IMG/VR virus record: IMGVR_UViG_3300044971_001666
Location: 1-63,879 of that record
Direction: 5' to 3' (one strand)
From: a virus
DNA length: 63,879 nt
Part shown: one piece after another, positions 2,800-63,879 of the stretch
Layout: the number at the start of each line of letters is the position of its first letter
Numbering within the stretch: position 1 is the first letter of the stretch
Made by a program: the position numbers and the translations under genes
The notes under the pieces: generated by a model
The model's input: only the letters and a program-made list of their open reading frames with translations
What the model was told of the DNA's origin: nothing
The model's database searches: none

Positions 2800-3111
2800 A
2801 TGAGAGATGAAGCACAAATATTAACCGTAATTCTAAATGCCAAAGCGTTTTTTACCAAAGAGGTTCAGAATATAGCAACTATTTTAGAAACTAGACTACT
2901 GAATGAGGGTGAGCAGTTAGCTGAAAAAGAACTCCAATCTTTGAGTATAGCAATTCAATCAATCGAGAACGGTTACTTGACTTTAGCCCAAAAGAATACG
3001 ATGGCAGACTATATTATGCAGCAAAGTTGGTACATAGACTTATTGCTTGGACAAAGTTATGTAGAAAATAATTATACAGTAGGAAATGATTATGTTGTTT
3101 TTAGTCAATAA
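2800..3111 (+). CDS. Small helical hypothetical protein, 103 aa
   Basis: Predominantly helical with Q/E/L-rich segments, ending in a short aromatic stretch. It lies between two tail-fibre genes with 12 and 17 nt gaps, so it may be a fibre-assembly or adaptor protein; this is context only. Confidence 0.5.
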   Translation: MRDEAQILTVILNAKAFFTKEVQNIATILETRLLNEGEQLAEKELQSLSIAIQSIENGYLTLAQKNTMADYIMQQSWYIDLLLGQSYVENNYTVGNDYVVFSQ

Positions 3112-3128
3112 ATAACTATTTTTGTAAA

Positions 3129-4244
3129 GTGGATGCAGTAGAACTTTTATTCAGAATTGCCAAAGGAGAACCTTTAACAGATTTAGAATTAGATGATAAT
3201 TTTAGAAAGCTAAAAACTGCTGTAAACTTCTTGCTAGAAGAATCGGAAACTCCAATCTCAACAGCCATTAGGGGTGAGATAAAACTTTTTAGTGGGGCTA
3301 GTCTTCCAACGGGGTATCTTTGGTGTAATGGGGCAGCAGTAAGTAGAACAACTTATGCTAGTTTATTTGCAATTACAGGGACAAAATTTGGCGTAGGGAA
3401 CGGAACAACAACTTTTAATCTACCCGATTTTAGGGGAGCAAGTCCAATGGGTTCAAATCCAATGGGAGCATCCACAAAAGTAGGTATATCCACAAGAACC
3501 GATGGTGCAATAGTAGGTGCGGAAACAGCAAATGCAAACCACAACCATACAGCTAGTGGCTTATTAGCAATAGAACCATTGAGTTATACGCCAAGTGGAA
3601 CAGTAGTGGTAGCTAACTATACGGGGAATATAACACCGAGTATTACTACTACAATTGCCCCCGTAGTATTATCAACAACGCCAATAGGAACAGTAGCAGT
3701 AGCTAATTATAGTGGTAGTGTAACACCAACAATAACAGTTGCTTCCGTAGTATTGTCAACAACACCTACGGGTTCAATAGAATCAACAACAACCCTTACA
3801 GCAGCAGAAGTATCAATAGATGTAGATGGAGAAACGTGTGTCAGTGTAAGTATAGCAGAAGCTACCGAGAGTGTAATGGATTGCGTAGAACTTACTATAA
3901 GCACAGACAAGATAATAGCTGCAATAGAAGCAACAACGACTTCGGTATTTACAGGAGATGCCGATGATTTGGCACATACTCACACCGCAACATCAAGCGC
4001 AGTAAGTTTGAATCATGGACACACCGCAACATTTACAGGAACTTCTGATGATTTGGCACACTCGCATACAGCAACATCTAGTTCTAGTACAATTAGTTTA
4101 AATCATGGGCATTCAGCAACCTTTACAGGAGCAAATGTTAGTTTTATACCCGAAGGCACAGCAGAAATAACCGTTGACTCAGAAGCATTAGCAGTTTCAA
4201 CAATTCAACCAAGTCAAGTTTGTAATTTCATTATTAAGTATTAG
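3129..4244 (+). CDS. Tail collar-domain fibre protein
   Basis: A 371 aa protein. Residues about 1-45 form a leucine-rich N-terminal attachment part. Residues about 47-110 carry the phage Tail Collar pattern: GEIKLFSG, LPTGYLWCNGAAVSR, YASLFAITGTKFG, FNLPDFRG. The rest is low-complexity beta repeat: two units built on GTV.VANY.G.(I/V)TP.I, then His-rich units (DDLAHTHTATSS, LNHGHTATFTG and variants) that may bind metal in a trimer. The start appears to be GTG. It is probably a receptor-binding fibre. Confidence 0.8.
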   Translation: MDAVELLFRIAKGEPLTDLELDDNFRKLKTAVNFLLEESETPISTAIRGEIKLFSGASLPTGYLWCNGAAVSRTTYASLFAITGTKFGVGNGTTTFNLPDFRGASPMGSNPMGASTKVGISTRTDGAIVGAETANANHNHTASGLLAIEPLSYTPSGTVVVANYTGNITPSITTTIAPVVLSTTPIGTVAVANYSGSVTPTITVASVVLSTTPTGSIESTTTLTAAEVSIDVDGETCVSVSIAEATESVMDCVELTISTDKIIAAIEATTTSVFTGDADDLAHTHTATSSAVSLNHGHTATFTGTSDDLAHSHTATSSSSTISLNHGHSATFTGANVSFIPEGTAEITVDSEALAVSTIQPSQVCNFIIKY

Positions 4245-5827: not shown

Positions 5828-6195
5828 AAACATTATTTACACAAGCGTTTCCGCAGAAATTGAAAGATTATTATGATGCGAAAATTTCAGCGTTAGAGTT
5901 TAATAAAGCAAACACAGCAACGGGAGCAGATTCGGTTACTTTAAACACAACAAGTGGAGTAGCTATTTTTACAGATAATTGTGAAATAGCCCCCTCTTGG
6001 ATAGAATATTTAATAAACAATTCACTAATAACAAGCAGTTCTTTAGTTAGTGTGAACGTCCAAATCGGAACCACTGGAGGGTACTGTTCTTTAGTTAATG
6101 TAAATTGTTCACTTGGGCTTATTACAGTAGCAATAAACGATGGTTTTACAGGAAGTGCGACAAACCCAATAGTAACTTTTACAATCTTAGGGTAG
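5818..6195 (+). CDS. Small putative fibre/virion protein, 125 aa
   Basis: A short helical N-terminus (FPQKLKDYYDAKISALEFNKA) precedes a T/S/G-rich beta region that includes GVAIFTDNCEIAPSWIEYLI. The helix-then-beta layout resembles the gene at 5102-5599, so it may be another fibre component. Start overlaps the preceding stop. Confidence 0.5.
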   Translation: MGLKTLFTQAFPQKLKDYYDAKISALEFNKANTATGADSVTLNTTSGVAIFTDNCEIAPSWIEYLINNSLITSSSLVSVNVQIGTTGGYCSLVNVNCSLGLITVAINDGFTGSATNPIVTFTILG

Positions 6196-12326: not shown

Positions 12327-14435
12327 GTGATTACGAATATTTCAAATTTAAAACCAAAAGACTTTGGAGTTGAAAAAGACAAAGCATGGTACGAGCAATA
12401 CGCAAGATATGTTGGTACAAAATACAATCACGCAATACCTCTTTTTTATAGTGTTGGAAATGTACCGACAGACCCTTTAAATAGACCTACTCAATGGGCT
12501 TCACGAACAATGAAGTTACTAGCATATTTGTTTGCGGAACAAAATAATGGTGTTTATGATTATATGTCAATGGATGAAAACAATAATCCATTACCTATAA
12601 AACTACTGAACACGAATATTATTTACACGTTAGTAAAGCATATTAACGGAACAATGGCGAGTAATATTTCTACTCTTCCCGATTCAATATTTGCTAGGTC
12701 GTTAGATAGTGATTACATATCATACAAGAAAACTCTATTCAATTTATCTAAGATGAAAATTGACTTCAACTATGTTTTTGAAAAAGCACAAGAGCAAGGA
12801 ATGGAGTTTTTGCCACTTGGCGACAAAGAATTTAAGAACGAAGAAGAACTTAGAAAATACCTAGAAGAAACCGTTCAGAATAAAATGGAGCGTTTCTTTA
12901 CCGCTTGGGCTAAAGATTGGCTATACAAAACAGACTACACTAATTGGGTAGCAGAATTGTTTAGATACTTAGTTCCTACCTACTTTAACCGAGTAGAATT
13001 ATATGTAGAAAATTGGAATGTAAAAGTAAAGGTTCACAAACCACAGAATTGTATTTGGGACAATAGCTTCGATGACGAGAACGGTAAGAAGCAAAGATTT
13101 CAAGGCGTTATCGAAGAATTTACAATACCCGCATTAAAAACAGCATATCCCGAACTTACAAAAGAACAGCTAGACCAATTAGACAGTTTATCTAAAGAAA
13201 ATACAAGTGGATTCAATCAATCTTATGGAACGACAGATAATATTGTATGGTATGACAAAAATCAGCAATCAGTATCAGTTTTAAAAGCAAGATGGATTAG
13301 TTTAGATAAAGAAAATGAAAGCACATGGTATCAATGCGACCTAATTGCTAACCTATTTGCTTTAAGATGCAAGCCATGTGAAAACATGACTAAAACAGCA
13401 CAAGGATATTTAGGCACACCATTTATTGACTTTATTCCCGACTTGATTAATGGTAGAAGCAGAAGTCCAGTAGATAGGTCAATGGATTTAGTGGATAAAA
13501 TTAGGGCTTACGAAGGTAAAATTGACTTAATGGTTCACAGAATAAAAGGTGCTGTAACAACATTATTTGCTGATAAAATCCCCGAAGGAATGGATGCAAT
13601 TAGTTTAGCGCAAGATATTAATAATGGTGTAGTAGTATTAGAAGGCGTTACGGGAGATGATTATTCTGAAAACGACAAAAGAACCTATGCTTTTAAAGTA
13701 GAACAGATTGGAATAGATTATAATTCGTACCAATCATTACGAGCAGAAGTAGAATTATTTAAAAACGAAATCAGAGATATTTTCAGCATTCCAAGAGTAG
13801 CACTAGGAAGCCAAAAAGGAATAATTGGACAAGGTGTTCAAGAAAATTCGATAGCGCAATCAACATTTGGTATCACCCCTCTTTATGATGGATTTGGACA
13901 ATACCTAAATACTATTATTCATGCAGCTTGTGAGATTAGAAAAAACCTAATTTTAATAGCCGAAGATACAGACGAAATGCGAGAAACATTACGAATTACT
14001 AAGCGTGAGTACGACATTTTTGAGTTGACAAAAGACATGGCATTGGTAGATTTAAATGTTTACCTAGATAATAAAGATGCTATTACTGAAAAACAACGTG
14101 CCGAATACTTAATAATATTTGAAAGAGAAGCGTCAATCCCTAACAGTTTTGTAGATGCCGAAGTAGCAGCCGAAGCAATGGCAGCACAAACAAATACTGA
14201 AATGCGAAACATATTAAGGTATAAGAAACGTATTTGGGAAGAAAAACAAGCAGCAGCAGCCAAAGCACAGCAAGAAGCAGCATCACAACAAGCGCAAATG
14301 CAACAAGCAGCAATGCAACAAATGACACAAACTCAAAATGCGGGTAAATTAGCTAATACGCAAATGAAAGGCGACATAGACTTAGAGAAAACCGCAATGG
14401 AAATACAAGCGGATAATATGCAACCAACTCAATAG
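12327..14435 (+). CDS. Putative portal protein
   Basis: A 702 aa protein starting with GTG. The size, position (terminase upstream; scaffold and capsid downstream) and composition fit a podovirus portal: a mixed alpha/beta body, a central section with RSPVDRSMDLVDKIRAYEGKIDLMV, and an Ala/Gln-rich C-terminal tail (residues about 640-690) like portal barrel or crown extensions. It would form the dodecameric vertex for packaging and tail attachment. No motif is diagnostic, so the call is mainly context. Confidence 0.75.
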   Translation: MITNISNLKPKDFGVEKDKAWYEQYARYVGTKYNHAIPLFYSVGNVPTDPLNRPTQWASRTMKLLAYLFAEQNNGVYDYMSMDENNNPLPIKLLNTNIIYTLVKHINGTMASNISTLPDSIFARSLDSDYISYKKTLFNLSKMKIDFNYVFEKAQEQGMEFLPLGDKEFKNEEELRKYLEETVQNKMERFFTAWAKDWLYKTDYTNWVAELFRYLVPTYFNRVELYVENWNVKVKVHKPQNCIWDNSFDDENGKKQRFQGVIEEFTIPALKTAYPELTKEQLDQLDSLSKENTSGFNQSYGTTDNIVWYDKNQQSVSVLKARWISLDKENESTWYQCDLIANLFALRCKPCENMTKTAQGYLGTPFIDFIPDLINGRSRSPVDRSMDLVDKIRAYEGKIDLMVHRIKGAVTTLFADKIPEGMDAISLAQDINNGVVVLEGVTGDDYSENDKRTYAFKVEQIGIDYNSYQSLRAEVELFKNEIRDIFSIPRVALGSQKGIIGQGVQENSIAQSTFGITPLYDGFGQYLNTIIHAACEIRKNLILIAEDTDEMRETLRITKREYDIFELTKDMALVDLNVYLDNKDAITEKQRAEYLIIFEREASIPNSFVDAEVAAEAMAAQTNTEMRNILRYKKRIWEEKQAAAAKAQQEAASQQAQMQQAAMQQMTQTQNAGKLANTQMKGDIDLEKTAMEIQADNMQPTQ

Positions 14436-38069: not shown

Positions 38070-38753
38070 TCATGCTTTTATGTGTTGGTAAATAGTTTTA
38101 AGCGTATAATTAATGCTGTTTTCATTCAGCTTCACCTTAATATCTTTTGCAGCCATTCCATTTTTAGCATAGGCTTTGATTAGTTCTACTCCGATTGGTG
38201 AAGTAGGTTTGTAGGTACGGTTTTTTGCAACTAGAGCCATTTGTTTTTTAGCATACTCTTTATCTTGCATAAGAGGACTACCTAGAGAAGTAATTGTATT
38301 CCCTTTTTTGGTAACGTAAACCTTATCTTTTTTAAGTCTATTTTTTATAGAGTTCAATCCATTAACGGTTCTTTCGGAAATCATTTCACGCTCCCTTTGT
38401 GCCATAGCTGCAAATAAATTTATTGTAAAGCCATCACATTCAGGCATATCCGAACATATAAACTTAACCTTACTTTCCATGAGTGAACTAATAAAGTAAA
38501 CATTTCTCGAAAGTCTATCCAGTTTAGCCACAACTAAAGTAGCGTTATGTAGCTTACACATATTTATAGCTTCTAAAAGCATGGGTCTATTATTCTTTTT
38601 GCCCGATTCTATTTCGGTAAAAGACTTAATTACAATACCACTATCTGTTATCTGCTTCACAGCCTTTTCTTGCGCTTCTAAACCAAGTCCGCTTTGACCC
38701 TGTTCTTTAGTAGAAACTCTTTTATAAGCCACATATTTTTCATCGTTTTGCAT
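38070..38753 (-). CDS. Serine recombinase (resolvase/invertase type)
   Basis: A 227 aa protein. Residues about 7-140 form the serine recombinase catalytic domain: YKRVSTKEQG with nucleophile Ser14, AKLDRLSRN with the catalytic Arg residues, and FAAMAQREREMISERT. The C-terminus (ELIKAYAKNGMAAKDIKVKL) is a resolvase-type helix-turn-helix. At this size it acts as a resolvase or invertase rather than a large serine integrase. A TAACTTTG box reads towards it at 38765-38758. It lies 2 kb from the first cassette array. Confidence 0.92.
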   Translation of the reverse strand: MQNDEKYVAYKRVSTKEQGQSGLGLEAQEKAVKQITDSGIVIKSFTEIESGKKNNRPMLLEAINMCKLHNATLVVAKLDRLSRNVYFISSLMESKVKFICSDMPECDGFTINLFAAMAQREREMISERTVNGLNSIKNRLKKDKVYVTKKGNTITSLGSPLMQDKEYAKKQMALVAKNRTYKPTSPIGVELIKAYAKNGMAAKDIKVKLNENSINYTLKTIYQHIKA

Positions 38754-40677: not shown

Positions 40678-40699
40678 AATGAAAAATAAATTGTCAAAG

Positions 40700-40747
40700 C
40701 GAAACGAGAAGCCCGCCTTTTGCTTATGTGCTGTTATATGAAGTGCC
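40700..40747 (+). repeat. Left-edge half attC (L' and R' boxes)
   Basis: CCCGCCTTTTGCTTATGTGC, one T, then GTTATATG (40733-40740). It matches the right half of the attC at 41760-41788 in order and spacing, but no left half precedes it. This marks the left edge of the cassette array. Recombination point is expected at G40733/T40734. Confidence 0.75.
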
Positions 40748-40808
40748 GACTTATTTACGATAAAGCCCAATTGGAACACTAAACAGAAAAACAAAAAGAA
40801 AAAAAGCG

Positions 40809-41072
40809 ATGGGAAATTTAAAACAAAAATTAAGTAAATACCAAAATCCAACTTTGATAAACGGGACTATTTATTACAATGTTCCTGAAAATGTATTGGA
40901 TAATTTAGAAAACGACAAGTGGGAACACTTTACGGATAAAAAATACCCTGAAAATGATTGTGATATTGTTGTTTTTAGCAACAAGAAACACAAATATTAC
41001 ATTGAACATACGGATAGTGAATTTTGGGAAAGATGTATTAATAGAAACTATATAAAATGGATGAAATTATGA
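40809..41072 (+). CDS. Cassette A gene 1: hypothetical protein, 87 aa
   Basis: Aromatic and charged (ENDKWEHFTDKKYPENDCDI). The stop TGA overlaps the next ATG (ATGA). No family was recognised. It starts 75 nt into the cassette. Confidence 0.55.
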   Translation: MGNLKQKLSKYQNPTLINGTIYYNVPENVLDNLENDKWEHFTDKKYPENDCDIVVFSNKKHKYYIEHTDSEFWERCINRNYIKWMKL

Positions 41073-41323
41073 AACAACAAACAGCAGTAGAATGGTTAGT
41101 AGAACAACTAACTCCTTCAATATCGTTACAACAAAAACATATTGATGAATTAAAAGAGAAAGCTAAAGAAATGGAGAAAGGTCAAATAGTTGATGCAGGG
41201 GTTTTTACATTTCAACTAACTGATAAAACGCCTTACGGAATGGAATATCTAAGCAAACTTGATAATGCAATTTCAAATGCGGTGTATTATTATGATGAAA
41301 CTTATAACAAACAAAATAAATAA
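41069..41323 (+). CDS. Cassette A gene 2: small phage-type protein, 84 aa
   Basis: The ATG at 41069 (MKQQTAVEWLVEQL) overlaps the previous stop and is preferred over one four codons upstream. The 'TAVEWLVEQL...' beginning is one I associate with small phage genes of Bacteroidota. Helical; function unknown. Confidence 0.6.
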   Translation: MKQQTAVEWLVEQLTPSISLQQKHIDELKEKAKEMEKGQIVDAGVFTFQLTDKTPYGMEYLSKLDNAISNAVYYYDETYNKQNK

Positions 41324-41324
41324 A

Positions 41325-41582
41325 ATGGAAACAAGTAAAGAATTAAAAACACCTACACAACACATGATGATATGGGTGTTGCAAAACTTTGAAAAAGAGT
41401 TGGAAAACGATATTGATAAAGACAAGTCGCTTGATGAAATATTTGATGAAACACTAACTTTTGAGCAACGAAAAATGAAAGAGTTTTTTGTAGCAGGAAT
41501 ATTTAAAGGTAAACAGAATATAGATTTTGACTTAGATGAAGAATTTAAAAAGTTTTACTCAAAATTATTCCCCGAAGAATAA
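41325..41582 (+). CDS. Cassette A gene 3: hypothetical protein, 85 aa
   Basis: The ATG at 41325 (METSKELKTPTQ) directly follows the previous stop; an upstream in-frame start inside gene 2 is less likely. Acidic, helical. It ends just before the attC region. Confidence 0.55.
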   Translation: METSKELKTPTQHMMIWVLQNFEKELENDIDKDKSLDEIFDETLTFEQRKMKEFFVAGIFKGKQNIDFDLDEEFKKFYSKLFPEE

Positions 41583-41654
41583 AAGTGCGGTGGCTTTTTT
41601 CTTTTTGTTTTTCCTTCACGGAACTTCAATTGGAAACGGTAAGCAAGGCATTTC

Positions 41655-41788
41655 ATATAACGTTTTGCAGCTACCAGAAGGGCGGGATTTTAACAACAAA
41701 ATAAATTTAAAAAGATGAATTATAATTTAACCACAAATGCTTCTAACGAAGCCGAAAGCCCCGCCTTTTTGGTAGGTGCTGTTAGCAG
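41655..41788 (+). repeat. attC site between cassettes A and B
   Basis: First box ATATAAC (41655-41661), 5-nt spacer GTTTT, arm 41667-41686, a loop of about 73 nt, arm 41760-41779, 1-nt spacer T, then GTTAGCAG. The two 20-nt arms differ at three positions. Total about 134 nt, at the long end of the attC range. The crossover is expected at G41781/T41782. Confidence 0.8.
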
Positions 41789-42705
41789 TAGTGCCTTTCT
41801 CGAATTAAAATAAAACTTCTGGGCGGAGTTATAAAACCCAATAAAAACAAAATGAATAATTTAAAAAATGAACCAATGGTGAAGCATAGTAACCAAGTTC
41901 ACACAACAACAGATTACTTTCTATTTAACCCAATAGAAGGTAACAGAAACAAAAACTTGTTACACATTAACAGATTAAAAAAATCAATGGCAGAAAACTA
42001 TTTATTTACGGTTATTATCGTAAATGAAAAGCATGAAATTATTGATGGGCAACACAGGTTTGATGTAATTCAAGATTTAAAACTACCGTTGAATTATATT
42101 ATTTGTAAAGGTTATGGATTAAACGAAGTTCACATTTTAAACCAAAACTCTAAAACATGGAACGCTGATGACTATTTAACTGGATATTGCCAGTTAGGTT
42201 ATGAGCATTACATTGAGTATGCAAAGTTTAAATCTAAATTTGGATTTGGGCATAATGAATGTATGCTATTGCTTGGCGGGTCTGATACGGGACATTCAAT
42301 AAAAGAGTTCTATTGTGGTGAATTTAAGATAAAGGATTACAATAAAGCACTTGAAAAAGCCACAAAAATAACAATGATAGGAAAGTATTATGATGGCTAT
42401 AAAAAATCTTCTTTTGTTAGAACTATCGCTCAAATTTTAGATAAGCCTGTTTTTGATTTTACTCAATTTATGCAGAAATTAAGAATACAGCCAACGGCAT
42501 TGCAGGACTGTTCAAATAACGAACAATACAAGCTATTGATTGAGGAAATTTACAATTACAGAACAAGAGAAAAGGTTAATCTTAGATACTAGTTTAATTG
42601 CGGGGTGTCAGTCGGCTTGCGGGTCGGCTGGCATTACTGCTAACGGGTCGCAGATACACGCTGTGAGCGTTGGATTGAGGGAGGGAAAATAGCGTGTATG
42701 TGCTG
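41782..42705 (+). mobile_element. Integron-type cassette B
   Basis: It begins TTAGCAGTAGTGCC (with G41781); its own attC starts with GGCATTACTGCTAAC (42630-42644), matching the inverse complement at 14 of 15 positions. About 924 nt, one gene on the same strand (ParB-like), attC at the end. Confidence 0.84.
41852..42592 (+). CDS. Cassette B gene: ParB/Srx-like nuclease-domain protein
   Basis: A 246 aa protein. Residues about 15-90 hold a ParB N-terminal-like fold: RLKKSMAENYLFTVIIVNEK then EIIDGQHRFDVIQDL, with the ParB 'DGqHR' motif, followed by LNEVHILNQNSKTW. The rest is helical. Such proteins bind DNA or NTP in phage defence, replication or partition settings; the exact role is unknown. 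A second ATG eight codons in (MVKHSN) is possible. Confidence 0.8.
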   Translation: MNNLKNEPMVKHSNQVHTTTDYFLFNPIEGNRNKNLLHINRLKKSMAENYLFTVIIVNEKHEIIDGQHRFDVIQDLKLPLNYIICKGYGLNEVHILNQNSKTWNADDYLTGYCQLGYEHYIEYAKFKSKFGFGHNECMLLLGGSDTGHSIKEFYCGEFKIKDYNKALEKATKITMIGKYYDGYKKSSFVRTIAQILDKPVFDFTQFMQKLRIQPTALQDCSNNEQYKLLIEEIYNYRTREKVNLRY

Positions 42706-42713
42706 TTATACGC
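42638..42713 (+). repeat. attC site between cassettes B and C
   Basis: First box TGCTAAC (42638-42644), 5-nt spacer GGGTC, arm GCAGATACACGCT (42650-42662), 28-nt loop, arm AGCGTGTATGTGC (42691-42703), 1-nt spacer T, GTTATACGC (42705-42713). The arms pair at 12 of 13 positions; the mismatch is at the fourth base, as in the attC before it. About 76 nt. Crossover expected at G42705/T42706. Confidence 0.85.
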
Positions 42714-43062
42714 TGCCTTTATTACTAATTTAATTTAAAAACAAAAATATGAACGCAAAAGAAAAAGCAAAAGAGTTAATCGAAAAATATCAAAAAATTG
42801 ATATTGAAATAGGTGGTCAATATGATGGCTACCTTACAATGAAAATACACGATGCCAAACAATGTGCTTTGATAGCAGTTGAAGAAATACTAAATGCAAG
42901 ACCATTAGACCCTAATTATGTAGATTGGGATGATTGTGGGGCAGCACACCAATATTGGTATGAAGCACAAAAAGAGGAAGCACTTGAATTTTGGAATAAT
43001 GTCAAATCGGAGTTGCAGTCTTTGTAAGGTTGCGTATAACTACTGTATAACTGCAACAAAAA
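42706..43062 (+). mobile_element. Cassette C with truncated attC
   Basis: It begins TTATACGCTGCC (with G42705) and ends with GGTTGCGTATAAC (43028-43040), the inverse complement at 11 of 13 positions. After that box only TACTG and a short AACTGCAACAAAAAGG follow, with no matching second arm or GTTA box, so the attC is cut short. This is the right edge of the array; the exact end is uncertain. Confidence 0.7.
42749..43027 (+). CDS. Cassette C gene: small hypothetical protein, 92 aa
   Basis: It begins MNAKEKAKELIEKYQ and has KQCALIAVEEILN, a pattern I associate with small Bacteroidota phage or prophage proteins. The rest is acidic and aromatic (YVDWDDCGAAHQYWYEAQKE). It ends just before the truncated attC box. 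Function unknown. Confidence 0.7.
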   Translation: MNAKEKAKELIEKYQKIDIEIGGQYDGYLTMKIHDAKQCALIAVEEILNARPLDPNYVDWDDCGAAHQYWYEAQKEEALEFWNNVKSELQSL

Positions 43063-43074
43063 GGATAAATAAAT

Positions 43075-43305
43075 ATGAGAGTATCAGTAAGTTATATAGT
43101 TGTTTGGCAAGTTGTAATTAATGGAATTGAAACACCTTATAAGTTCACAAAAGACGGTATTTGTATTAATACCCAACGATGCAAAATATTAAAAAAAGTA
43201 TCAAAAAATTCAACAATAGGATATAATTTTCATTCAAAATTTTACCCACTTTTAAAAGTTAAATTACTAATGCAAAAAATAAAAATAAATAAATTACCAT
43301 TTTAA
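43075..43305 (+). CDS. Small basic hypothetical protein, 76 aa
   Basis: Beta-prone N-terminus (MRVSVSYIVVWQVVINGIE), then very Lys-rich. First gene after the cassette array; it is followed by the next ATG 2 nt after its stop. No family was recognised. Confidence 0.5.
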   Translation: MRVSVSYIVVWQVVINGIETPYKFTKDGICINTQRCKILKKVSKNSTIGYNFHSKFYPLLKVKLLMQKIKINKLPF

Positions 43306-43307
43306 AC

Positions 43308-43475
43308 ATGAGCGAAATAGACAATTATTGCAGTATAAAAGACTTTGCCTTATCCAAAGGTGTTACCACACAAGCTATTTATCGTCAAATAAAGCGAGAT
43401 AGTTTAAAAGAGGAAAAGTTTAGGAAATTGACAATAAAAAAAATAGGTTTAACAACAATAGTTAAAGTAAAATAA
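43308..43475 (+). CDS. Small helix-turn-helix protein, 55 aa
   Basis: CSIKDFALSKGVTTQAIYRQ reads as a helix-turn-helix of the MerR/excisionase type ('s..efA...gvt.q.iy..ik'). Basic overall. Possibly an excisionase-like or regulatory protein for the local operon. It begins 2 nt after the preceding stop. Confidence 0.65.
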   Translation: MSEIDNYCSIKDFALSKGVTTQAIYRQIKRDSLKEEKFRKLTIKKIGLTTIVKVK

Positions 43476-62019: not shown

Positions 62020-62024
62020 GTTGT

Positions 62025-62055
62025 TTCGCCAATCTACGAGTTACTTGCAAGTGGG
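62025..62055 (-). repeat. Right-edge half attC (R'' and L'' boxes) of cassette D
   Basis: On the minus strand: CCCACTTGCAAGTAAC (62055-62040), 5-nt spacer TCGTA, then ATTGGCGAA (62033-62025). The nine-base arm matches the arm of the complete attC next door, but the second half is missing. This is the array's border with the phage operon. Confidence 0.75.
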
Positions 62056-63275
62056 CGGACGTGTTCTATATTAAGCATTCGTTTCAAAACTTTTTAAAAA
62101 ATTAGCCCCACCCGCTTCGGTTTTTTCAAAACCGTTTAGTTTAGACAGCCATTGCTCATAAATTTCATCCGCTATCCTTGCAGTCATTATAGGTGGCACA
62201 CTCATTCCAACCAAATAAATCACTTTGTTTGTTTTAAAATCATAGTCCATTGGATAGCTACCCGCTTTTTTTATTGCATCATCTGAAATATGTTGTGGTG
62301 TTTCAAAATCTATAAATTTGCCATTAGCTGTTATGGTATTTAAACTGCTGTTATGTTTTACCAGTATTGCATTAAAATCAGATAACAAACCACGTTCCCT
62401 TGCATTTATATCACCCAAATTTGTATCACTATCTATTTTTTTGCCCCATAGCATTTGTTGGTGTTCTGTTAATGGCTTGCCTAATTTGTCGGCAAATTCA
62501 CCATAAAAAATTTCGGGTTCTTTAAATGTCAATTCCAATTTTGGAACTACTGTAAACATATCAGCATTATACAAAAAAGGTTCTGCCAAATCCTTTCTCA
62601 TTGCAACAAAAAACACTCTTTCTCTGCGTTGTGGCACACCCATTTTTGAAGCATCCAGTAACCAATGTTGGCAGTAATAACCAGCCAAATCAAATTCCCT
62701 ATAAATTTGCCTTACATATTGCTTTGCTTCACCTAATAACAATCCTTTTACATTTTCAGCTACTACCACTTTTGGTTGCAGTTTTTTAGCCAAATCGATA
62801 AAATCAAAAAACAAAGTGTCCAATACTTGTTCAGCTTGTCCCTCTCTAAATACTTTGTCTTTGCCCCAATCTTTTTCACGATTACCTGCCATTGAAAAAC
62901 TGCTACAAGGTGGCGAACCATCCAAAATATCTAAATTGTAAAGTTCATCAGGCAAATCAGTTCTTAATTTAAAGGTCTGTATTGGCTCTAAATAAGCATA
63001 TTTTGGATTATGGTTAGCTTTGTATGCTTCAATCATTTTCGGGTCAATCTCATTGCACCCTAATACATCAAATCCAGCTAATTTATAACCCATTGTTGAT
63101 CCACCGCCACAAGCAAAACAACTAAATACTTTGCCTTTGTCTTTTGTAAATACTGCATCTTTTAAAGTCCAGTTGTAATTGTAAGTTTTTTTTGCCATCG
63201 CTTCGCTAATTTTTTAAAAAGTTTTGTTTAGTATTTCAATTAAAGTTTTGTGCTGAAAATCCCACCAGCAAGTAA
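62040..63275 (-). mobile_element. Integron-type cassette D (DNA methyltransferase)
   Basis: On the minus strand it begins TTACTTGCTGGTGGG (with G at 63276) and ends with CCCACTTGCAAGTAAC (62055-62040), the inverse complement at 14 of 16 positions. About 1236 nt, one gene in the same direction. Its own attC is cut short after the first half. Confidence 0.82.
62071..63198 (-). CDS. dcm: Cytosine-5 DNA methyltransferase
   Basis: A 375 aa C5 methyltransferase. Motif I FSCFACGGGSTMGYK with CNEIDP after it; motif IV LDGSPPCSSFSMAG with the catalytic Cys in PPC; motif VI VVAENVKG; motif VIII PQRRERVFFVA; C-terminal motifs IX-X (GMSVPPIMTARIADEI). No restriction enzyme is beside it, so it may act as an orphan protecting phage DNA. 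Its location in an integron-type cassette suggests recent gain. Confidence 0.95.
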   Translation of the reverse strand: MAKKTYNYNWTLKDAVFTKDKGKVFSCFACGGGSTMGYKLAGFDVLGCNEIDPKMIEAYKANHNPKYAYLEPIQTFKLRTDLPDELYNLDILDGSPPCSSFSMAGNREKDWGKDKVFREGQAEQVLDTLFFDFIDLAKKLQPKVVVAENVKGLLLGEAKQYVRQIYREFDLAGYYCQHWLLDASKMGVPQRRERVFFVAMRKDLAEPFLYNADMFTVVPKLELTFKEPEIFYGEFADKLGKPLTEHQQMLWGKKIDSDTNLGDINARERGLLSDFNAILVKHNSSLNTITANGKFIDFETPQHISDDAIKKAGSYPMDYDFKTNKVIYLVGMSVPPIMTARIADEIYEQWLSKLNGFEKTEAGGANFLKSFETNA

Positions 63276-63361
63276 CAAGGCATTGGCAAAAGCGGCTGAC
63301 AAGTTCCTGCATAAATCAAGCGGTTTCCAAGCCGCCTTCGCCAATGCCCAACCGTTAGCGG
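63270..63361 (-). repeat. attC site between cassettes E and D
   Basis: On the minus strand: first box CCGCTAAC (63361-63354), 5-nt spacer GGTTG, arm of 18 nt (63348-63331), loop of 34 nt, arm (63296-63279), spacer TT, then GTTACTT (63276-63270). Arms pair at 16 of 18 positions. About 92 nt. Crossover expected at 63276/63275. Confidence 0.85.
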
Positions 63362-63796
63362 TCATTCTAAACCGACACCCGATACAATCCTTTTTCATTG
63401 GGTTTTAAATCTACATTAAAGATAAATGACGACTTCCCAGTTTTTAATAAATCGAAAGTATCATCAAAGAAATTCATTAAATCCTTTGACGAAAAACGCA
63501 ATGTATGTGGGTCTTTTCGTTTTAAAATAAACGCATCATCTTCATCATCTTTTAAGACATAAGCCGTTTTTGCTTTTTGATTAAATCCAAACATTAAACC
63601 ATCATTATCATCAACATTTAAAGCCTTTGCGACAATATCGCTAACAATAAACCGACCGTTTTTTAACTCCAGTTTTATTACTGGTTTTTTAAATGTTCTC
63701 AATTGTGAATGAGAACTTCGCTTTACAAATACTATTTCTTCCATTTTTTGATATATTTTTATATTAATTTATGAGATAAAAAGAACGAACCGCTAA
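63354..63796 (-). mobile_element. Integron-type cassette E
   Basis: On the minus strand it begins TTAGCGGTTCGTTC (with G at 63797), carries a 125 aa gene in the same direction, and its attC begins GAATGACCGCTAAC (63367-63354). The two ends share nine exact bases plus a partly matching extension. The gene's stop codon lies in the attC's first box, as is usual for compact cassettes. Confidence 0.8.
63367..63744 (-). CDS. Cassette E gene: hypothetical protein, 125 aa
   Basis: Begins MEEIVFVKRSSHSQLRTFKK. A beta-prone middle with FIVSDIVAKALNVDDNDGLM and a C-terminal FIFNVDLKPNEKGLYRV. The 'vs..va..l.v...d...F' section recalls SpoVT/AbrB-like or other small DNA-binding beta folds, but this is uncertain. 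The stop overlaps the attC first box. Confidence 0.65.
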   Translation of the reverse strand: MEEIVFVKRSSHSQLRTFKKPVIKLELKNGRFIVSDIVAKALNVDDNDGLMFGFNQKAKTAYVLKDDEDDAFILKRKDPHTLRFSSKDLMNFFDDTFDLLKTGKSSFIFNVDLKPNEKGLYRVSV

Positions 63797-63879
63797 CACG
63801 GGTTTGGCAAAAGTGGGCAGAAACATTCTGCTAAAATTGAACATCATACAAGCCCACCTTCGCCAAGCCCGAAAACGTT
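63783..63879 (-). repeat. attC site at the window's right edge
   Basis: On the minus strand: AAC (63879-63877, the box runs off the window), 5-nt spacer GTTTT, arm of 20 nt (63871-63852), loop of 33 nt, arm (63818-63799), 1-nt spacer T, then GTTAGCGG (63797-63790). Arms pair at 17 of 20 positions. The window stops inside the first box, so at least one more cassette or another boundary lies beyond. Confidence 0.85.

Follow-up and report, generated by a model that had tools for sequence, protein, structure and literature searches.

Two cassette arrays in a phage genome

The window analysed here is the whole of the viral record IMGVR_UViG_3300044971_001666 (63,879 nucleotides), which carries two arrays of integron-like gene cassettes. 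Array 1 consists of three cassettes, A to C, with two attC-like hairpins between them and an attI-like entry site at the right edge. Hairpins were scored with the covariance model R1, which was trained on 35 bacterial attC sites and contains zero phage sequence. The features of array 1 are the following:

40679–40741: leader ORF at the truncated distal attC, MKNKLSKRNEKPAFCLCAVI
40712–40736: truncated distal attC, left of cassette A, a single half, CCCGCCTTTTGCTTATGTGCTGTTA
40733–41661 (+): cassette A body, arms GTTATATGAAGTGCC and GGCATTTCATATAAC, 14/15 paired
40809–41072, 41057–41323 and 41259–41582: cassette A genes
41658–41784 (−): attC 1, 127 nt, R1 91 bits, E 1e-19
41715–41813 (+): leader ORF from the attC 1 loop, in frame across the GTT, MNYNLTTNASNEAESPAFLVGAVSSSAFLELK
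41781–42644 (+): cassette B body, arms GTTAGCAGTAGTGCC and GGCATTACTGCTAAC, 14/15 paired
41852–42592: cassette B gene, ParB-like, 246 aa, phrog_12305 E 1e-29
42641–42708 (−): attC 2, short form of 68 nt, R1 E 2e-7
42705–43040 (+): cassette C body, arms GTTATACGCTGCC and GGTTGCGTATAAC
42749–43027: cassette C gene, 92 aa, phrog_21441, function unassigned
43036–43057 (−): attI-like entry site, GTTGCAGTTATACAGTAG followed by TTAT, G of the GTT at 43040

Pfam and PHROG searches with the cassette A genes returned no match under E 0.01, and no partner half for the truncated distal attC was found upstream of it. Just within both ends of cassette A lies a perfect 19-nt inverted repeat, GAAAAACAAAAAGAAAAAA (40786–40804 and 41595–41613). 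Cassette B has a relative with identical arms in the related locus L160, and the arms of cassette C (GTTATACGC and GCGTATAAC, at 42705 and 43040) pair perfectly. In the window, the leader of attC 1 is merely an upstream ORF of 32 codons.

Array 2 lies at the right end of the record (62040–63879), contains two cassettes and has the strand opposite to that of array 1:

62023–62044 (+): attI-like entry site, GTTTCGCCAATCTACGAG followed by TTAC, G of the GTT at 62040
62040–63276 (−): C5 DNA methyltransferase cassette, gene at 62071–63198, PF00145 E 2e-42
63273–63357 (+): attC, R1 E 1e-9
63354–63798 (−): cassette with a 125-aa ORF (63367–63744), function unassigned, start and end GTTAGCGGT and ACCGCTAAC
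63795–63879 (+): last attC, within which the record ends, R1 E 3e-10

A previous sequence-only reading of this DNA had proposed three integron-type cassettes in array 1. The three start and end arm pairs on which it relied are present (A at 40733/41661, B at 41781/42644, C at 42705/43040), and the R1 scores of the two sites of the array (E 1e-19 and 2e-7) bear out the presence of integron-type cassettes in a phage rather than background. The edges that it gave to the array were correct as far as the pairs are concerned, but the left site is half an attC, the right edge at 43040 is attI-like and a second array is present at 62040–63879. Its main argument, that the arm pairs by themselves demand recombination, stands only in part: the pairs exist, but five pairs with at least 13/15 matches per strand were observed compared with 0–4 in Markov shuffles of the window, so that arm complementarity as sole proof was discarded as too weak. 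Array 1 is far beyond chance because GTGCTGTTA, of which there are only three occurrences in the window, marks the three cassette starts, because of the sites found by the covariance model, and because arms also match in other loci, as described below.

Outside the arrays lies a serine recombinase gene (38070–38753, minus strand; PF00239 E 5e-23), and the record yielded no further site-specific recombinase. A search for relatives through the NinG gene was abandoned, as it led to two loci only, one of them a 99.99% identical contig, L001, which starts at window position 43104, 64 nt to the right of the array 1 attI. The assembly breaks at the arrays, at the start of this contig and at the end of the record inside an attC, suggest cassette variation within the population.

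The attC family

Exactly four attC-like hairpins are detected by R1 in the window, two per array, with the next match at E 0.08. The model gave 0 matches in 360 kb of random windows taken from array-bearing genomes, and a search of the window at the Rfam gathering thresholds gave no match. attC 1 (41661–41781) was first met again in the cultured Flavobacterium phage hemulen6-1, and the pattern CCCGCCTTTTNNNNNNGTGCTGTTA, which three sites share, matches at least 120 genome-contig stretches, nearly all with Bacteroidota titles, as well as 54 viral contigs. Across these loci, the approximately 120-bp element is near-constant, while the sequences flanking it on both sides are unrelated.

On the canonical strand, the sites are laid out as YAAC-A-L''-...-L'-AAAAC-GTTR. 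In 35 diverse bacterial sites, two-sided changes are seen in 19 out of 19 pairs of the L stem, and the covariation score of the stem in bacterial sites is 0.760, versus 0.155 for shuffled and 0.08–0.10 for slid alignments. The folding R''/R' and L''/L' feature is therefore present, as a covarying stem plus an invariant A.C mismatch. The loops of bacterial attC sites, of about 60 nt in alignment A1, carry degenerate TTNGTGCT units that are repeated in many sites.

The cassette arms are complementary over approximately 15 nt. Between neighbouring sites of other loci, arms match at no fewer than 11 of 16 positions in 122 out of 157 cassettes, compared with 7.6% for shuffled partners. In 106 of these 122, arm position 11 is mismatched as A.C on the canonical strand, and the opposite strand has a G.T pair there. 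Three sites were compared for folding on both strands. The other strand has lower z values than the canonical one for attC 1 (−2.7 versus −0.9) and for the site at 63273–63357 (−4.3 versus −3.7), and both strands of attC 2 fold about equally. The asymmetry at position 11 and the strand-dependent folding may together amount to a built-in strand choice, as in integrons. R' is conserved as GTTR alone and its positions 5–7 are free, so that the classical GTTRRRY / RYYYAAC core is absent. The earlier reading is incomplete in this respect: the sites differ from the classical IntI type, with an R' of GTTR rather than GTTRRRY and 15 nt of pairing, and a classical IntI is not their likely enzyme.

The hairpin might also be regarded as a MITE or REP-like transposable element, inserted beside genes, which would fit the near-identical 120-bp elements found between unrelated sequences throughout the phylum. 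Such an element is hardly credible here, since each cassette has its own arms, which pair over its full length, the unit gained or lost comprises the hairpin plus a gene, and the elements stand head-to-tail 3' of integrases. A MITE or inverted-repeat transposon was rejected, as the arms differ for every cassette and the units join directly at the core.

A linked integrase and its attI in Bacteroidota

Sites of this attC family were found in 146 of 297 Bacteroidota genomes and in one of 249 control genomes. The controls were drawn from the phylum to which G328 (MAG title Methylococcaceae) belongs, and the only match among them is G328 itself, with one site on a 5-kb contig that probably represents contamination. 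Another MAG, G326 (titled Limnohabitans), has 81 attC sites but was unusable as a non-Bacteroidota control because its phylum draw gives the same Bacteroidota genomes. The titles of both MAGs are at odds with these findings.

A tight integrase family, called as present at E ≤ 1e-60, occurs in 79 of the 297 Bacteroidota genomes. attC sites are present in 71 of the 79 genomes with the integrase versus 75 of the 218 without it (Fisher 1e-18, in a test that ignores phylogeny), the latter implying that other enzymes or decayed arrays exist. The density of sites is 51 per 474 kb around the integrases versus 0 per 360 kb in random windows, and 35 of the 36 sites with an orientation share one polarity and a location 3' of the integrase. 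A bacterial attI motif, TATANNNNAGTTR, is found about 100 nt past the integrase stop codon, and the first cassette starts at its GTTR. A profile made of 16 attI sites from bacterial integrase loci only reaches a score of at least 10 in 26 of 30 new independent integrase loci and in 0 of 30 upstream controls. Moreover, L260, L261, L264, L267, L271, L274, L275, L280, L283 and L284 each show a match between the arm at attI and the end of the first cassette detected.

With regard to the enzyme, all 29 array-bearing genomes (29/29) have tyrosine recombinases that resemble TIGR02249 and remain under its cut-off, and these proteins do not have the model region 180–238, which is the place of the IntI additional domain. 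The host candidate integrase, whose match breaks at model positions 178–238, obtains 192 bits with TIGR02249, against a cut-off of 265, and scores similarly with the XerA, XerD and XerC models. The L227 integrase, which served as query, has an extra N-terminal region and the domains Phage_int_SAM_4 and Phage_integrase, and is about equidistant from the XerA, XerD, XerC and IntI models. The likely enzyme is thus a tyrosine recombinase that lacks the IntI additional domain; its gene is followed on the 3' side by attI, and the array runs in the same direction. At locus L236, whose integrase is of another subtype, three different attCs (955–1074, 5965–6085 and 13257–13376, oriented) are each followed by the same GTTGAACTGACACCCTAT, as though a further type of entry or end module were repeated there.

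These data bear on the possibility of a classical CALIN, that is, attC cassettes derived from an ordinary IntI integron and moved by a host IntI. Integrase-less attC clusters are known in virulent phages, and IntI1 has been reported to recombine phage attCs, among them that of a Bacteroidota phage, P12002L of Polaribacter (PMC9892861). Nevertheless, this origin appears improbable for the arrays described here. Salinibacter ruber was the only case of a complete integron in Bacteroidetes in the genome-wide IntegronFinder 2 survey (PMC9024848), no match in the 29 array-bearing genomes reaches the TIGR02249 cut-off, R' is GTTR rather than GTTRRRY with arms that pair over 15 nt, and P12002L itself gives only a weak match with R1 (E 3.5e-4).

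attI-like sites in phages

When the bacterial attI profile is applied to the window, 43040 (−) ranks first and 62040 (+) second among 127,716 positions. This top rank indicates that the right edge of array 1 is attI-like and not an attC, and the right end at 43040 is the entry site. attI sites with matching arms are found in other viral arrays too (L130, L146, L156 and L169), and a search of the Lillamyvirus arrays returned moderate scores only, the highest of them close to the left edge of the array, around position 2048.

TIGR02249 and PF00589, both of which match 14 out of 14 control genomes, gave 0 matches in the window. The absence of an integron integrase, as claimed from the sequence alone, is in line with this, and a cellular enzyme must indeed be inferred, there being no tyrosine recombinase in the phage. 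With four attC sites by R1 (at least two being needed) and no integron integrase, the window falls under the definition of a phage CALIN. The phage presumably borrows the host enzyme to move its cassettes.

Cassette gain and loss in related phages

Locus L160 shares with the window the right flank of array 1 (window 43035–43311, 97.5%) and cassette C (96%). Its extra cassettes sit exactly at the attI junction of window position 43040, between cassette C and the flank, and comprise an attC, a 79-aa cassette, an attC with a DNA methyltransferase gene in its loop, and a 29-bp minicassette. The junction reads YAAC/TACTG in both L160 and the window, and only GTATAAC is common at the junction. In the stretch L160:2918–3756, the attC loop encloses the whole DNA methyltransferase gene (209 aa, 3001–3630), after which comes the minicassette, GTTATAGCATCGTTTTAATGTGCTATAAC.

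In the Lillamyvirus isolates, which are cultured Flavobacterium phages, R1 detects between 10 and 14 strong sites in each phage. A single 439-bp cassette distinguishes sniff9-1 from sniff9-2, whose flanks are 99.96 and 100% identical. The junction is within CGTTAT, and the sequence places the cut no finer than these six nucleotides; the flanking attCs are 57% alike, compared with 59% for random attC pairs. Breakpoints lie at most 25 nt from an attC end in 28 out of 42 cases, which are not independent, the expectation being 8.4%. Sequence comparison, of L160 with the window and among Lillamyvirus, thus points to exchange of whole cassettes at the core and confirms at this level that the cassettes are real and mobile. 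That the block would show cassette gain and loss rather than form a fixed backbone had been anticipated, and both the L160 extras at 43040 and the 439-bp difference agree with it.

Homologous-recombination mosaicism between repeated hairpins, without a site-specific enzyme, could produce differences of this kind, given that phage genomes are mosaic and that the similarity of some attCs between phages reaches about 95%. It is, however, very improbable as an explanation, since the sniff9-1 and sniff9-2 attCs are no more alike than random ones and join in the 6-nt CGTTAT, L160 and the window share only GTATAAC, and the cassette-specific arms and attI sites would be left unexplained.

According to the gene tables, a cassette-borne methyltransferase is present in hemulen, sniff and snork and absent from lillamy9-1 and morran9-1. 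The low plating of lillamy9-1 and morran9-1 on strain LMO6 rose after passage there and was tied to a missing methyltransferase in the paper on the isolates, which mentions no cassettes or integrons (PMC7077304). The cassette methyltransferase may correspond to the gene of Table S13 in that paper.

Inverted cassettes and start codons in the attC loop

The main ORF has the canonical orientation relative to attC in 84 of 87 bacterial cassettes and the opposite one in 25 of 27 viral cassettes (p 1e-19), that is, the attC follows the gene in bacteria (84:3) and precedes it in phages (25:2), with the reservation that the viral sample was fetched by one site pattern and includes near-duplicates, so that these counts are not fully independent. 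Both arrays of the window are of the viral, inverted type. A shared orientation of gene and site, which had been assumed initially, was overturned by the integrase loci. Exchange takes place at the right end in canonical orientation, so that a phage unit comprises the hairpin and the gene after it, as is borne out by L160 and sniff. The polarity first proposed for array 1, a gene and then its hairpin, consequently has to be turned around, the attC strand being opposite to the genes and the unit consisting of the hairpin and the next gene.

An ATG in the loop that is in frame with the GTT and open across it occurs in 43 of 75 viral versus 23 of 213 genomic sites (p 6e-15). If any frame is considered, the loop ORF extends more than 90 nt into the cassette in 38 viral sites. 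These ORFs give unrelated proteins one type of start, such as MNDNLTTNASNEAESPAFLVGAV or MMQKTLFENENLIEPLNPAFCIGAV, and the MMQKTLFENENLIEPLNPAFCIGAV leader precedes several methyltransferases.

Proposed mechanism and relation to known systems

The phage very probably carries two enzyme-less, integron-like platforms of a Bacteroidota cassette system, for which a host-encoded tyrosine recombinase would act as the integrase. This reading is built on what could be established at the sequence level, namely the structure of the sites and their covariation, the attI sites, the exact gain and loss of cassettes, the absence of a tyrosine recombinase from the phage, and the linkage of integrase, attI and array in the hosts. 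The linked host integrase would be the enzyme, acting on phage DNA within the infected cell. It would prefer the bottom strand, as what pairs as G.T on one strand becomes an A.C mismatch on the opposite one.

Each platform consists of an attI-like site and then cassettes, each of which combines a single attC hairpin with one gene or a few. The host integrase would bind the folded single-stranded attC and exchange strands in the C-G-T-T-R core, so that cassettes may circulate among host arrays, phages and attI. With the phage gene inverted relative to attC, the attC lies upstream of its own gene, and in about half of the sites a loop ATG opens a frame that crosses the recombination site toward or into the gene. 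The array would thereby form a polycistronic series of swappable small accessory genes, such as those for DNA methyltransferases and ParB-like proteins, under phage transcription. In broader terms, these sites probably belong to an unrecognised class of Bacteroidota integron with a non-IntI integrase, together with a separate phage pool of inverted cassettes in which the hairpin doubles as a translation start and N-terminal leader, and swaps by the host enzyme would re-equip the phage, for instance with anti-restriction methyltransferases.

The system resembles integrons (IntI, attI and attC, e.g. the sedentary chromosomal ones of Vibrio) in its tandem cassettes of a gene and a folding attC, an attI entry site next to a tyrosine recombinase gene, a GTT core at which exchange takes place and, for two of the three sites compared, better folding of one strand. 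It differs from them in a Bacteroidota integrase that has no IntI additional domain and scores under the IntI cut-off, in an attI 3' of the integrase gene with the array codirectional with the integrase, in an R' of GTTR only with about 15 nt of complementarity and a conserved G.T/A.C at position 11, and in phage cassettes that carry the gene inverted. The phage attC clusters of Qi et al. 2023, which came from classical attC models, are similar in that virulent phages harbour several attC-flanked cassettes, often with DNA methyltransferases, and no integrase (PMC9892861). The phage arrays described here have attI sites too, a Bacteroidota-specific attC, inverted cassettes and turnover among near-identical isolates. 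Riemerella anatipestifer has been reported to take up aph(3')-IVb independently of homology, together with fixed segments of 27 nt (5') and 140 nt (3'), and the authors noted an attC-like fold (PMC13148043). By these lengths, the segments would fit a cassette of the Bacteroidota system.

No description of a Bacteroidota-wide integron was found in the open-access literature searched. Within that scope, the Bacteroidota system and the inverted phage cassettes seem to be new, whereas phage cassette arrays themselves had already been described (PMC9892861).

In surveys, Bacteroidota figure as a phylum with almost no integrons (PMC9024848), whereas the attC family is present in about half and the linked, tight integrase family in about a quarter of the 297 genomes sampled. 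Such a spread would place the Bacteroidota system among the most widely distributed integron-like systems. Two questions become testable on the phage side, namely the source of swappable anti-defence genes in phages and how cassettes are made, the latter because the same hairpin is found on opposite sides of the gene in phage and bacterial cassettes. For the phylum as a whole, the system would fill a gap as a route by which accessory and resistance genes spread.
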